IMG/VR virus record: IMGVR_UViG_3300025849_000158
Coordinates: 1 to 28,554 of that record
DNA from: a virus
DNA: 28,554 nt
Strand: one strand, 5' to 3'
Position 1 is the first letter of the stretch. Every line of letters starts with the position of its first letter. Shown piece after piece: positions 8,534 to 12,230 of the stretch. A program made the position numbers and the translations under genes. The notes beneath the pieces were generated by a model. The model was not told the DNA's origin. It saw only the letters and a list, made by a program, of their open reading frames with translations, and ran no database searches.

Positions 8534-8800
8534 TCAATCTCGTTGTGCCATCTTCTCGACAGCACCGCGTATATGTTGAATATTTTCATCGATACGGGCC
8601 ATGCTGACCGCTTGGCTTTGTACCATGTTCTCGACCTTAGACACCCGCTCTGAGAAAGCTATGAGCTTTTCAGTATTCTGTTGAATGTCCGCCATCATCA
8701 TGGAAACTGTCCAGACAATGGCGGCGGCTTGTGTGATTAGGCCAAGAAGGAGAGTTGCGGGGACACTTCGGGATATGTGCCAACCTTCTTGGGTGGTCAT
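8534..8800 (-). CDS. small membrane protein with coiled-coil tail, possible second holin or spanin
   Basis: An 88-residue protein with one membrane helix (about residues 14-36, SVPATLLLGLITQAAAIVWT) followed by a heptad-rich tail (IQQNTEKLIAFSERVSKVENM...ARIDENIQHIRGAVEKM). This N-in single-pass plus periplasmic coiled-coil layout suits an i-spanin or a class III/antiholin-type regulator. The ATG overlaps the stop of the tail-assembly gene as TAATG. It opens the lysis block after the tail genes. Confidence 0.68.
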   Translation of the reverse strand: MTTQEGWHISRSVPATLLLGLITQAAAIVWTVSMMMADIQQNTEKLIAFSERVSKVENMVQSQAVSMARIDENIQHIRGAVEKMAQRD

Positions 8801-9189
8801 TAGGGCGTATCTGGGAACGATACGTTAGGCCATGCATCTGTCGATGTAATGTCACGAAGCGCAGTCCTGTAAGTAACCCACAAAGCCTTCGCTTCATCCG
8901 TTAACGGGCTGTCGGACATCTGTGTCCAATCGCTGTCACTGAGTAACTGATTGCGTGTGTCACGTTTAGAAGCTGCAACCACAGCATCTTGTTCCTCTTG
9001 AGTAGGCAGATCAGAGGTTAAAGTCCAAGGAAGATTTTTACGATTGCCGACCCAGTCCTTAACCTGTTGTTCTGTAGTCCATTGCGCCTGACTACTTGGG
9101 TTATAGCTAGGAAGCCTAATCTCACTAAGCCCATCTTCGCTTACAACACGACAACTCAAGTCATCATTAAATGTAAATGTATTAGGCAT
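8800..9189 (-). CDS. phage tail assembly chaperone (tail-fibre assembly type)
   Basis: A 129-residue protein. The C-terminal third, RNQLLSDSDWTQMSDSPL followed by WVTYRTALRDIT and WPNVSFPDTP, is the Phage_tail_APC pattern (R-x-x-L-L-x-x-S-D-W-T ... Y-R-x-x-L-R-D). The N-terminus is beta-rich. Family members follow tail-fibre genes and are thought to help fibre folding or attachment. ATG 9189 overlaps the preceding gene by 8 bases, and the stop is shared with the next ATG (TAATG). It sits at the end of the host-recognition block. Confidence 0.82.
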   Translation of the reverse strand: MPNTFTFNDDLSCRVVSEDGLSEIRLPSYNPSSQAQWTTEQQVKDWVGNRKNLPWTLTSDLPTQEEQDAVVAASKRDTRNQLLSDSDWTQMSDSPLTDEAKALWVTYRTALRDITSTDAWPNVSFPDTP

Positions 9190-9514
9190 CGAATTCTATC
9201 CCAACTACTGAATGATATGCGTAGTTTGAATTACCACTGACAAAATCGCCAGCGGCAGTTTCTATAGGATAGAAATTTAGATTGCTGTTTGAGCCAAACG
9301 TGTTGTAATGGACGTTCCCAGTATGACCGGGGAACTTACCAAGCTCATAGCTATAGTCGTTCACCCAAACAATGCCTTTGAACTTCCTGCCTTCTGGCAC
9401 AGTGTAGAAAATTGAATTCCTATCGGTAGTGCCATTGTAGTGAGAAATGCTAATTGCCTTGTCAGCTTGTGGAGCAGAAGTAGACGTTCCTTTTGGTATA
9501 GAAGTTAATGCCAT
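9182..9514 (-). CDS. small beta-rich tail protein of unknown function
   Basis: A 110-residue protein starting at ATG 9514 with GGAGAC upstream. Asn, Ser, Tyr and Gly are frequent (NVHYNTFGSNSNLNFY) and there are no hydrophobic helices, suggesting a small beta-sandwich. The N-terminus (MALTSIPKGTSTSAPQADKA) looks like a flexible attachment arm. It lies between the putative adhesin and the tail assembly chaperone, so a minor fibre or receptor-contacting subunit is the likeliest role. I do not recognise the family. Confidence 0.68.
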   Translation of the reverse strand: MALTSIPKGTSTSAPQADKAISISHYNGTTDRNSIFYTVPEGRKFKGIVWVNDYSYELGKFPGHTGNVHYNTFGSNSNLNFYPIETAAGDFVSGNSNYAYHSVVGIEFDA

Positions 9515-9516
9515 TT

Positions 9517-10833
9517 TTAAGTCTCCGATTTAATGCCAAGAAGTTGGATGCCGAATGTAGGAGTTGCAAGACCTAATGCTGTTGCCTCGCTAGCCGATAG
9601 TGTTTTTGTGCTGGTTTTGTAATAGTTCAGCGTCCTACTTGCCCCCGCAATTTCAATACCAGAATATGAAAAAGGTGCGGAGTGTTGAGTACCATCAGGA
9701 TAAATAGAAACGTAATTATTTCCTGTGCTAAAGTAACGTATTCCACCACCACTAATAGCAGTTGGGCTTCCCTTTATAAAAGGAGTACTTACTTGAGATG
9801 GCGAAAGATTAATCTGGCCTAGATTACTAAATCCTATAGTTGCATTATTTGCATCGGCCACTAAATCCGTTAGTGTTGGAGTAACTTTAGCTACCTGAAA
9901 AACATTAGTAGAGCTAACCCTCCAGATGTAAATAGAGTCTGTCGCAGCATCGTGTGAAATTGCAAAATTGTTACCGCCTGTAGGGTAATTAATAGTCGGC
10001 ATTCCAGTAAAACTTTTCATGCCCCCATTGTTAACATTTAATGCGTACATTTGAGATGTATAACTATTACTAGGCATAAACCAAATATGGTCATAAGCAA
10101 AGAAATGCCTAGGATAGCTGGATGTAGGGTGCGGATTTCTATTATAGGTGGTAGCACCACCTGTGAAGTTTCCAGTTGGAGTAGCGTCTATATCTTTAAT
10201 GTAAAAAGTAGAGCCAGAGCTTGCATAACCAATGAAGTCTCCGTTTAATTTATGACCTGTTCCAACAGCAGCATAGTTTAGGTATTCATTTTGGCCGCTC
10301 CCAGATACTTGCCCTACATACCATGTCTGCTGTGCTGAATTCGTATCGTGTTGTGTATAGTACCAATACCCATTTCCGTTATCAGCTATATTGAAATCAA
10401 TATTAATAATTTCATTGTTATTTCCGCTGGAAAGTGCTGCTGTAGAAGTTAAACTCAACGGGGTGGAGAATACGTCAGACTGACCTTTAATCCTAATGAC
10501 TTTTTCGACGTAACCATAGTTAGAGCCATCTAAGCCAATGTTTTCAGTTTGCTCAAAAACAAACGGAAAAGTGCTGCCTGTTTTAATTTTTAAAGTTGAG
10601 CTTGGAGGTACTACTAAACTACCCGTAGCGTTAGATGTTAGATCGCTCACGTTAAAACCGTTTAGCTCAAGGTGTGAGCCTGCATCAAGAGATGAAAAAG
10701 AACCAATTAAATTCATGTCCTTAATAACATAGCTTGTATTGGCGTCTGTTGTTACAAGAGTATGCTCACCATCAGTAAGCTCAGTCTCACCCAATGATGT
10801 GTTCATGTATATTTGGTCTAGTGTATCAGCCAT
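9517..10833 (-). CDS. putative tail-fibre adhesin / receptor-binding protein
   Basis: A 438-residue protein rich in Asn, Ser, Thr, Gly and Tyr, with almost no long helices. Residues 1-100 look like a beta-solenoid or attachment domain (LELNGFNVSDLTSNATG). Later segments repeat a strand pattern with aromatic-aspartate ends (TFYIKDID, HFFAYDHIWFMPS, DSIYIWRVSS), as in beta-propeller folds. Its base composition is visibly more AT-rich than the flanking structural genes. ATG 10833 overlaps the tail-fibre stop as TAATG. Its place right after the gp17-like fibre suggests it forms or caps the distal fibre and binds the receptor. Fold and role are inferred. Confidence 0.65.
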   Translation of the reverse strand: MADTLDQIYMNTSLGETELTDGEHTLVTTDANTSYVIKDMNLIGSFSSLDAGSHLELNGFNVSDLTSNATGSLVVPPSSTLKIKTGSTFPFVFEQTENIGLDGSNYGYVEKVIRIKGQSDVFSTPLSLTSTAALSSGNNNEIINIDFNIADNGNGYWYYTQHDTNSAQQTWYVGQVSGSGQNEYLNYAAVGTGHKLNGDFIGYASSGSTFYIKDIDATPTGNFTGGATTYNRNPHPTSSYPRHFFAYDHIWFMPSNSYTSQMYALNVNNGGMKSFTGMPTINYPTGGNNFAISHDAATDSIYIWRVSSTNVFQVAKVTPTLTDLVADANNATIGFSNLGQINLSPSQVSTPFIKGSPTAISGGGIRYFSTGNNYVSIYPDGTQHSAPFSYSGIEIAGASRTLNYYKTSTKTLSASEATALGLATPTFGIQLLGIKSET

Positions 10834-12230
10834 TATAATGCTCCGAATTTGATTAAGGCTGCGGCTGAAACACCGTCAATGCCAGTTAGGTTAGATGCGT
10901 TCAGTGCGGGTAGTTGTCCTGACCCATCAAGTTGAACGACTTGGTTTGCACCTGTGCCAACATCGAGTGCTGACGCAGTGCCAAGGCCATTGATTGCTGT
11001 GCTTAGATCAGTAGCTGAAGCCTTTGCATCAAGCTGTGTTTGCACAGAAGAGTTAATGCCAGCCACGTTGTTAAGTTCCGGCAGAGTTGCAGTAAAACCA
11101 AGGTTACTTAGAGCTTCAGATGTAGATGCCAAATCACTAAGATTACTATTAGATATCAGAGCACCAGACAGGGATGCGTAAGCGGCAACCCAGCTAGAGC
11201 CTTCGTATACCTTCATGACATTATCAGTCGTATTAAAGTACAAAGAGCCAGACACCAAAGCGTTTCCGTCATTATCAACAGTTACATCAGAAGTCTTCTG
11301 CCCCAAATATCTGTCATCAAATGAATCTAATGCAGCAAGAGCGGCGTCCTTAGATGCCTGTGCGGATGAGGCAGAAGTTGCGGCGTTGGTCGCGCTGGAT
11401 GCAGCATTAGTCTCAGAAACAGACGCATTATCCGCGCTTACACCTGAGGCGATTTTAGATGCTTCAGAAGCCGCAGCACTGACTTGAGAGTTTGTAGCTT
11501 GGGCTGTCGCAAGGGTTACCTGAGCGGCCCCGTTGGTTGTTGCTAGAGTAGCTTGGGCTGTCGCAAGGGTTACCTGTGCTTCACCATTAGTTGTCGCTAA
11601 GGCAGCTTGCGTAGCCGCCGTGGCAGCTGAACCCGCAGCATTTGTGGCAGAAACCTGAGCAGCATCCTCAGAAGCCGCAGCATCGCTCACCAGTGCAGTA
11701 TTTGTGACAACGCTAGCCGCAGCGTTGGTTTCACTTAAAGCGGCAGCTATGCGGTGTAAATCAGCTTCCGCAGCGTCAGACTCAGATAGATTACGGAACG
11801 CTTGGGATTCATCACGAAGTGCCTGTGTGGCGTCCCTAAAACCTTCAGCTTCCTCTTGATACTGTACGGAAAAGTCCACCTGATCTAAGGCTTCTTGCAT
11901 GGAATACAGCAAGTAGTCTGAGTTCTTGTTGAGGTCCGCAGCGAGTAGCGCAGAACCATCAGAGAAGCTAATAGGTCGTGTTGTAATTGGTGTACTACGG
12001 CGTAGTTGGATTTCTTTACCCGCCGCAATAGCACCCCCGATACCATCTGTTACTCTTACCGTTGTGTCGTTAAGTTTTGTGAATGTGTGACTGGCTGTTG
12101 GATCAGCGTTTGATAGACCATCGATTTCGACCGTGATGTGGTCATCATCGAGGTAATCCCAAGTGATCAGGTAGTCAGTCGTCGTGCCATCGGCTATGTA
12201 GGCCGAGACAGAATACTTTACCGTTGGCAT
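10833..12230 (-). CDS. tail fibre protein, T7 gp17-like N-terminal domain
   Basis: A 465-residue fibre. Residues 1-120 match the T7 tail-fibre N-terminal domain: VKYSVSAYIADGTTTDYLITWDYL, then VEIDGL, LRRSTPI near 76-82 and LLAADLNKNSDYLLYSMQEALDQ. This domain docks the fibre to the tail. Residues 120-300 form a long Ala/Thr/Ser-rich helical shaft with an 18-residue tandem repeat (unit LATTNGAAQVTLATAQ). The C-terminus is a short beta-rich domain, without the large gp17 tip. ATG 12230 has AGGA upstream. The missing tip could be supplied by the next gene. Confidence 0.87.
   Translation of the reverse strand: MPTVKYSVSAYIADGTTTDYLITWDYLDDDHITVEIDGLSNADPTASHTFTKLNDTTVRVTDGIGGAIAAGKEIQLRRSTPITTRPISFSDGSALLAADLNKNSDYLLYSMQEALDQVDFSVQYQEEAEGFRDATQALRDESQAFRNLSESDAAEADLHRIAAALSETNAAASVVTNTALVSDAAASEDAAQVSATNAAGSAATAATQAALATTNGEAQVTLATAQATLATTNGAAQVTLATAQATNSQVSAAASEASKIASGVSADNASVSETNAASSATNAATSASSAQASKDAALAALDSFDDRYLGQKTSDVTVDNDGNALVSGSLYFNTTDNVMKVYEGSSWVAAYASLSGALISNSNLSDLASTSEALSNLGFTATLPELNNVAGINSSVQTQLDAKASATDLSTAINGLGTASALDVGTGANQVVQLDGSGQLPALNASNLTGIDGVSAAALIKFGAL
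11494..11576 (-). repeat. tandem 54-base repeat in tail-fibre shaft
   Basis: A 29-base stretch at 11494-11522 is repeated exactly at 11548-11576, 54 bases apart, encoding an 18-residue protein repeat in the Ala/Thr-rich shaft. The exact DNA identity points to recent duplication or recombination. Confidence 0.85.

Follow-up and report, generated by a model that had tools for sequence, protein, structure and literature searches.

A separate and exchangeable gene behind the tail fibre of a T7-like roseophage encodes a candidate beta-propeller adhesin

Where does a T7-like virus carry the part which grips its host cell, when its tail fibre has only a short C-terminus? This question is raised by a 28,554-base virus contig from IMG/VR (record IMGVR_UViG_3300025849_000158, positions 1 to 28,554; here termed the window), a fragment of a T7-like roseophage. 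In a first-pass annotation, made from the letters alone, it was proposed that the receptor tip of a gp17-like fibre had been moved to a separate, exchangeable gene. The genes concerned are four intact open reading frames (ORFs) on the minus strand, as are all features of the window given below: the fibre gene (10833-12230; 465 amino acids, aa), a gene for a 438-aa adhesin candidate (9517..10833), a gene for a 110-aa protein (9182..9514) and a chaperone gene (8800-9189; 129 aa). They were found where that annotation had placed them, together with the fibre docking domain, the AT- and Asn/Ser/Thr-rich next gene with its strand repeats, the small beta protein and the chaperone. The span of 9182-12230 which it had assigned to host recognition holds the fibre, 438-aa and 110-aa genes; the chaperone gene lies outside it.

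That the tip gene is separate and exchangeable is well supported by comparison with close relatives, where the abrupt loss of similarity which had been suggested as a check was indeed found. In the related contigs L012, L015 and L081 the part of the adhesin corresponding to residues 94-411 is 29%, 25% and 29% identical to that of the window, amid flanking genes of which most have 92–99% identity. Identities between L012 and the window are 95% in gp16 (over 415 residues), 98% in fibre residues 1-120 (as in L081), 94% in the holin and 97–99% in the genes for the endolysin and the 88-aa and 175-aa proteins. The 88-aa gene (8534..8800) is the conserved 3' flank of the exchanged block, with 99% identity in L012 and L081 and 92% in L015. 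In L015 the downstream 175-aa gene is an exception, being only 21% identical to its counterpart in the window; thus the exchange reaches further there. Contig L024 is of the same type as the window (99.55% over 4008 base pairs, bp, up to the edge of L024).

The edges of the exchange could be read most clearly from L012 and L081, which stem from different metagenomes, as judged by the contig names. On the 5' side they are 99.3% identical over 3446 bp, comprising part of gp16, the whole 724-aa fibre and the first 14 bp of the adhesin gene; on the 3' side they are 99.5% identical over 2598 bp from the middle of the chaperone gene onwards. Nothing between these edges was aligned by blastn; the replaced stretch starts near codon 5 of the adhesin gene and ends near codon 78 of the chaperone gene. 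The block of L012 encodes a 442-aa adhesin, a 107-aa protein in the place of the 110-aa protein (slot 3) and a 129-aa chaperone; that of L081 encodes a 427-aa adhesin and an 86-residue chaperone, and no slot-3 match was obtained (best match to the 110 family at E 0.84 on the opposite strand; a second slot-3 family, of about 200 aa, was also not found). The L081 adhesin is a far relative, with a full-length match to the iterated profile at E 1.3e-22. Two viruses which are 99% identical and have different tips would represent a natural experiment on the effect of a tip change.

The fibre which remains in place during such an exchange is a composite. Residues 1-127 (11850..12230) are a T7-type docking domain, with 71.4 bits for Pfam Phage_T7_tail (PF03906; cut-off 25.2, E 8.7e-20) and PDB matches to the tail-fibre N-termini of T7 gp17 and two other fibres (E 1.2e-6 to 1.1e-7), in agreement with the gp17-like assignment. 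A shaft of variable length (residues 128-300, 11331..11849) has Ala/Ser-rich repeats and is possibly coiled; total fibre length is 465 aa in the window and 724 aa in L012. Residues 301-350 (11181..11330) belong to a widespread marine-phage fibre domain (YLGxK..DNDGNAL..LYFNTT), with 55–79% identity to Lentibacter, SIO1, P12053L and RC1/RS1 fibres; recombination between shafts and tips is likely to occur at this widely shared stretch. Residues 351-452 (10875..11180) form a module, which we call the foot, homologous to free-standing genes of other phages, where a gene of 82–151 aa for the foot stands directly upstream of the adhesin. In L016, L020, L025 and L018 (71%, 67%, 52% and 42% identity, respectively) this separate gene is located between other fibre genes and the adhesin. 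In the window it is fused to docking domain and shaft; the "short" fibre of 465 aa thus consists of docking domain, shaft and a ready-made foot. A short fibre turned out not to be a hallmark, since the gene directly upstream of the adhesin spans 82 to 895 aa in other phages; the last residues are shared instead. In L016, L018 and L019, three to four consecutive fibre-like genes precede the adhesin (in L018 of 635, 304, 504 and 106 aa), which would fit a fibre assembled from several polypeptides in series; next to the set in L016 lies an internal virion protein of T7-like type.

Fibres upstream of the adhesin have unlike shafts and like ends, such as GVSAAALIKFGAL, GFSYASTLAFGDY, GVSYATIVAFS, GANIATTMAFA and TSYATFLKYQ. 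In the window this C-terminal tag, GVSAAALIKFGAL, comprises fibre residues 453-465 (10836..10874), with the motif at 455-462. A strict pattern, [SN].A[AST]..[KA][FY], sought in the last 16 residues, was present in 15 of 15 upstream fibre ends of a first set of adhesin loci, in 20 of 25 loci of a later set (11 of 16 distinct ends) and in none of 450 other ORF ends. Five of 45 loci were left out of this count: L057, L033, L026 and L024, which have no upstream ORF, and L048, where the upstream ORF is the split start of its own adhesin. When contigs were sought by the fibre foot alone, 501 loci were found, of which 80 were kept and 78 entered a de-duplicated comparison, leaving out 7 with a fibre ORF cut by the contig end. 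The adhesin gene came next in 22 of 23 tagged loci versus 0 of 35 untagged ones, some of which have the foot-like stretch inside a long fibre and not at its end; the lone tagged exception, L103, is a contig which ends 54 residues into an adhesin. Five tagged contigs were new and served as a blind test (L081, L094, L100, L111 and L132), and all five have the adhesin next. Among cultured phages, the two with an adhesin (CRP-113 and CRP-171) carry the tag, and it is absent from the seven fibre ends of six relatives without one. Since the foot is widespread without the adhesin, it is the tag, not the foot, which tracks the adhesin.

The adhesin is not confined to one backbone. In CRP-113 and CRP-171 the 438-aa and 110-aa genes both have homologues, which stand in the same order together with a chaperone of 52% identity, on a different backbone (gp16 26–29% identical; in CRP-171 blastn aligned 7% of the structural block), and the trio of genes occurs also in contigs with amidase-type neighbours. 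The nearest cultured relatives of the window in the structural block are the Roseobacter phages CRP-118, CRP-403 and CRP-804 (DNA identity of 74–76% across 92–100% of 7.8 kilobases; gp16 73–75% identical in CRP-118 and CRP-403), and neither adhesin nor 110 gene was found in these three. Import of a ready-made cassette would thus be simpler than relocation from gp17. The receptor tip appears separate and exchangeable, as had been proposed; that it was moved out of gp17 was not borne out, since the adhesin occurs on several backbones and was never seen fused. CRP-113, CRP-171, CRP-118 and CRP-114 were all isolated on strain FZCC0023 and have three different tip designs, which may correspond to different receptors on one cell. 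CRP-114 carries two consecutive long collagen-like fibre genes in place of fibre and tip block (L004:3471-7363).

The gene for the adhesin candidate starts within the stop of the fibre gene (TAATG, 1 bp overlap), which suggests coupled translation. Its GC content of 39.6% is the lowest of 26 tabulated ORFs (next lowest 40.0%; window 46.3%), as is that at third codon positions (30.5%), and its product has the highest share of Asn, Ser and Thr (31.5%; fibre 28.4%, 110-aa protein 28.2%); the gene is thus extreme in both compositional features which had first been noted. When viral contigs were scanned with the 438-aa protein alone, 8 pattern matches and no relative resulted, so that family profiles were needed; scans of IMG/VR with these yielded 14, then 35 loci, and after removal of copies 45 distinct loci, counting the window, CRP-113 and CRP-171. 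No ORF matching the adhesin profile in the fetched loci exceeded 589 aa, and none was fused to a fibre. In L048 (4986-6245) the adhesin gene is broken by a stop or frameshift after the N-terminal domain. A pattern-based scan of 84,980 bacterial and archaeal genomes, which distant relatives can escape, gave 87 matches, none of them confirmed. The 438-aa protein of the window belongs to no PHROG or Pfam family (best Pfam match DUF5633, E 0.45), and scanning of 29 adhesins gave one PHROG match (E 0.005) and one Pfam match (E 0.004), to two different families and both weak. Sequence searches of PDB with the adhesin and 110 family profiles returned nothing useful, that with the adhesin profile only a coat protein (E 1.3) at E <= 5. 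No earlier description of this adhesin was found in the titles or abstracts returned by literature searches, although one may exist. Tentaclins were considered and rejected, since they contain C-type lectin and Ig domains, unlike this adhesin (PMC10743442).

Conservation divides the adhesin into three parts. Mean pairwise identity among 29 adhesins is 48% in residues 1-88 (10570..10833), 23% in residues 89-411 and 41% in residues 412-438 (9520..9600), a C-terminal strand ending in LLGIKSET. An AlphaFold2 model built from the 29 sequences is nearly all strand (mean predicted local distance difference test, pLDDT, 73.4; predicted template modelling score, pTM, 0.67). It consists of an N-terminal beta domain with strands at residues 6-84, the putative socket for the fibre tag, and a hypervariable part, residues 94-411 (9601..10554), predicted to be a beta-propeller, as the propeller-like repeats noticed in the sequence had led one to expect. 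Foldseek against PDB gave 50 matches at E <= 0.001 (best 1.6e-5), with low TM-scores (about 0.2–0.5); most of the matched entries are beta-propellers, as is in part evident from their titles. VIA-align of residues 94-411 found LRP6 (Z 12.4, root-mean-square deviation 4.8, 246 residues), TolB, SMP30, AofleA and others. Six blades would be our guess from the types of match, LRP6, TolB and SMP30 being six-bladed. Among predicted viral proteins, the best match extended over almost the full length of the model; it was A0A6J5MM96 from an uncultured phage, itself uncharacterised (E 7e-19, TM-scores 0.69/0.71, 16% identity).

The two remaining genes of the cassette follow the adhesin. The 110-aa protein, which ends in GIEFDA, was modelled as a small beta protein of seven strands (pLDDT 77.2), and the next protein matched the tail chaperone family PF16778 with 55.7 bits (cut-off 26.6), both as first annotated. 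The 110-aa protein of the window has no PHROG or Pfam family, and no match was obtained by tblastn among 50,697 phage records; PHROG matches occurred in two of 23 family members (best E 9.8e-5, "secreted protein"). Its structural neighbours are weak (Foldseek best E 0.04; VIA best Z 7.7, the STIV A223 turret protein), and therefore no function was drawn from them. The idea that it is a small copy of the adhesin N-domain gave a negative profile comparison (probability 0.2), and 110-like proteins of CRP-361 and CRP-227 were rejected as relatives (13–20% identity). Scans of IMG/VR with the 110 family profile gave 3, then 22 loci, and an adhesin-family ORF stood upstream in all 22, two of these being fragments at contig edges. 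Slot 3 is occupied, in 39 loci with enough sequence, by the 110 family (27), by the family of about 200 aa (11) or by a glycine-rich domain protein (PF21722; one, L038). The two main families have no detectable similarity to each other; a start M[AG]LT was found in 28 of 42 slot-3 proteins versus 8 of 689 other ORFs, a count which is only suggestive, the 42 proteins being related to one another. The family of about 200 aa starts with MGLT (e.g., L019:7251-7859).

The chaperone consists of a variable half, residues 1-65 (8995..9189), which changes with the adhesin, and a conserved tail-assembly domain, residues 66-129 (8803..8994; PF16778 at 73-129). Compared to the window, the N-half is 62% identical in L012, 26% in L015 and absent or unalignable in L081 (20 of 65 residues aligned); identities of the C-half are 69–89%. 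This is as expected from Pam3 gp25, a two-domain chaperone with a conserved C-terminal part and a variable N-domain, by which the fibre is held at its receptor-binding part (PMC9608196). A chaperone was recognised in 35 of 39 adhesin loci; L069, L071, L073 and L075, all with long adhesins, were without.

Taken together, the tip of this virus is probably a plug-in, in which a tagged fibre end holds a separate propeller adhesin; docking, location in the virion and receptor binding we infer. The fibre would be anchored to the virion by its N-terminal domain, as judged by profile homology, and would end in the short tag, on which the 438-aa protein would dock via its conserved N-terminal beta domain. 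The predicted propeller would then be presented to the cell surface. The 110-aa protein may join the tip as a second, optional plug-in. The variable N-half of the chaperone would serve the adhesin of its own cassette and the constant C-half would serve assembly, by analogy with Pam3 gp25. The variable part lies between two shared stretches, the start of the adhesin and the C-half of the chaperone, at which recombination could exchange the block; adhesin, slot-3 gene and chaperone N-half would be swapped together, and fibre and tag would stay. If this is true, the virus could change what is gripped without rebuilding its fibre.

Several points weigh against this reading. In the later set the strict tag is missing from five of 25 loci, four of which have near variants, the exception being L070. 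The ends of the later set were known before the pattern was written, so that the blind test is limited to the five new contigs, two of which, L111 and L132, have an identical fibre end. The loci are related, hence the counts are not independent events and are inflated. Confidence in the adhesin model is moderate (pLDDT 73), and the L081 adhesin was missed by the default search, being found with HMMER filters off or with the iterated profile. One of the metagenome contigs L012 or L081 might be misassembled, though each gene is intact. Finally, with three tip designs on FZCC0023, the tip type is not simply mapped to the host strain.

Other roles for these proteins have to be considered. The 438-aa protein could be a folding helper which caps the fibre end while the virion is assembled and then leaves, with the fibre end or the 110-aa protein binding the cell. 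Its gene stands directly after the fibre and before the chaperone gene, and a helper of this kind is known in T4 gp38, whereas gp38 of T2 binds the receptor (PMC12892980). We consider this improbable, since a dedicated PF16778 chaperone is already there in 35 of 39 loci and variation is greatest in the propeller, with the putative fibre-facing domain conserved, the reverse of what would be expected of a helper fitted to the fibre. The common occurrence of chaperone and adhesin genes in those 35 loci means that the tag tracks both, and it could thus be a signal for the chaperone instead; this, too, has little probability, as among the six cultured relatives which lack the adhesin, five (CRP-118, -361, -804, -114 and -227) have a chaperone match and no tag, and L073 and L075 have strict tags and adhesins and no recognised chaperone.

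The true receptor binder could also be the slot-3 protein, with the propeller as hub or spacer. Slot 3 holds quite different proteins, and a glycine-rich domain is the receptor-binding element of other phage fibres, such as that of Pam3 (PMC9608196); yet L081 has kept an adhesin without a match to either main slot-3 family, and the 110 protein of L012 has 78% identity to that of the window, versus 29% in the propeller, which makes this role unlikely. Alternatively, the 438-aa protein could be a second receptor-binding protein with its seat elsewhere than on the tag, attached sideways to the fibre or to some other tail protein in the manner of G7C or KP32-type phages. There is a precedent in T7-like Klebsiella phages, where a second receptor-binding gene follows the PF03906 fibre and its product is attached at a branch point (PMC6872550). 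Here, however, the common element is the last residues of the fibre, the only part shared by fibres with unlike shafts, and in several loci the upstream partner of 82–151 aa contains little beyond foot and tag; such branching is very unlikely.

The surroundings of the block are those of a T7-like virus. On the minus strand, portal, scaffold, capsid, tube A, nozzle, two large internal virion proteins, fibre and tip block are followed by small genes, holin, endolysin, small terminase, MazG, ribonucleotide reductase and large terminase; the T7-type order of portal, scaffold, capsid, tube A, nozzle, gp16 and then fibre is thus present. Promoter and terminator sites between 8500 and 12600 were no commoner than in shuffled sequences, and co-transcription of the block is therefore assumed from gene overlap only.

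A further ending (…K-x-[YHF]-[YF]-LATA) was found on the same foot in L088, L096, L098 and L099, followed by a family of 515–635 aa starting with M(A)SGxLG. Members of this second adhesin family (L088:4296-5840, L096:4457-6361, and the same slot in L098 and L099) are cysteine-rich in L096 and L099, which is unusual for a tip protein; those of L088 and L096 had no Pfam or PHROG match, and the slot-3 family of about 200 aa occurs downstream of this second family also, in L088 and L098. It is quite possible that marine phages use an open standard for their tips, with a common foot, several C-terminal tags each matched to its own adhesin family, and a third slot for interchangeable small proteins. 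If so, phages of different families could exchange tips wherever their tags match. The fibre tag would also provide a sequence rule for predicting the likely receptor-binder gene in marine phage contigs without known host. T7-like phages which infect marine relatives of Roseobacter would have a design comparable to the separate fibre-tip adhesins of T4-like phages, and their adhesin family has no Pfam or PHROG entry; tail fibres and receptors are not mentioned, by term search, in the main text of a paper on cultured roseophages (PMC11092137).

Among known systems, gp38 of T2, S16 and PP01 is a small adhesin at the fibre tip whose exchange changes the receptor (PMC12892980). As in these gp37-gp38 pairs, a separate gene directly after the fibre gene encodes a variable receptor-facing part and a constant remainder. 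In contrast, gp38 has glycine-rich motifs in a poly-glycine sandwich, whereas the adhesin described here is modelled as a beta domain and propeller with 9.8% glycine, and its virus is T7-like, not T4-like. The podophages KP32, KP34 and G7C resemble the window in having a PF03906 fibre, then a second exchangeable receptor-binding gene with a conserved N-terminus; their second protein is often a depolymerase and is attached to a T4gp10-like branch domain through a short N-terminal peptide (PMC6872550). That peptide has 7–30 residues, whereas the adhesin is conserved over about 88 residues and the tag is the C-terminus of the fibre. In the fibre, Phage_T7_tail was the only domain at E <= 1 in a search with Pfam profiles, which did not extend to remote homology. 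Beta-propeller receptor-binding proteins are known from phi11 (gp45) and PRD1 (P2) (PMC6115969), which share the fold, here predicted only, and differ in virus type and N-terminal parts. A host-recognition module common to distant phages was described for Alteromonas phages V22 and A5 (PMC10579305); unlike there and in Pam3, where fibre and chaperone move, adhesin, slot-3 gene and chaperone N-half are replaced here behind a fibre which is kept. A separate adhesin at the fibre tip is thus ordinary in principle and known from T4-like phages; new would be the adhesin family, its setting and the compact tag on which it presumably docks.

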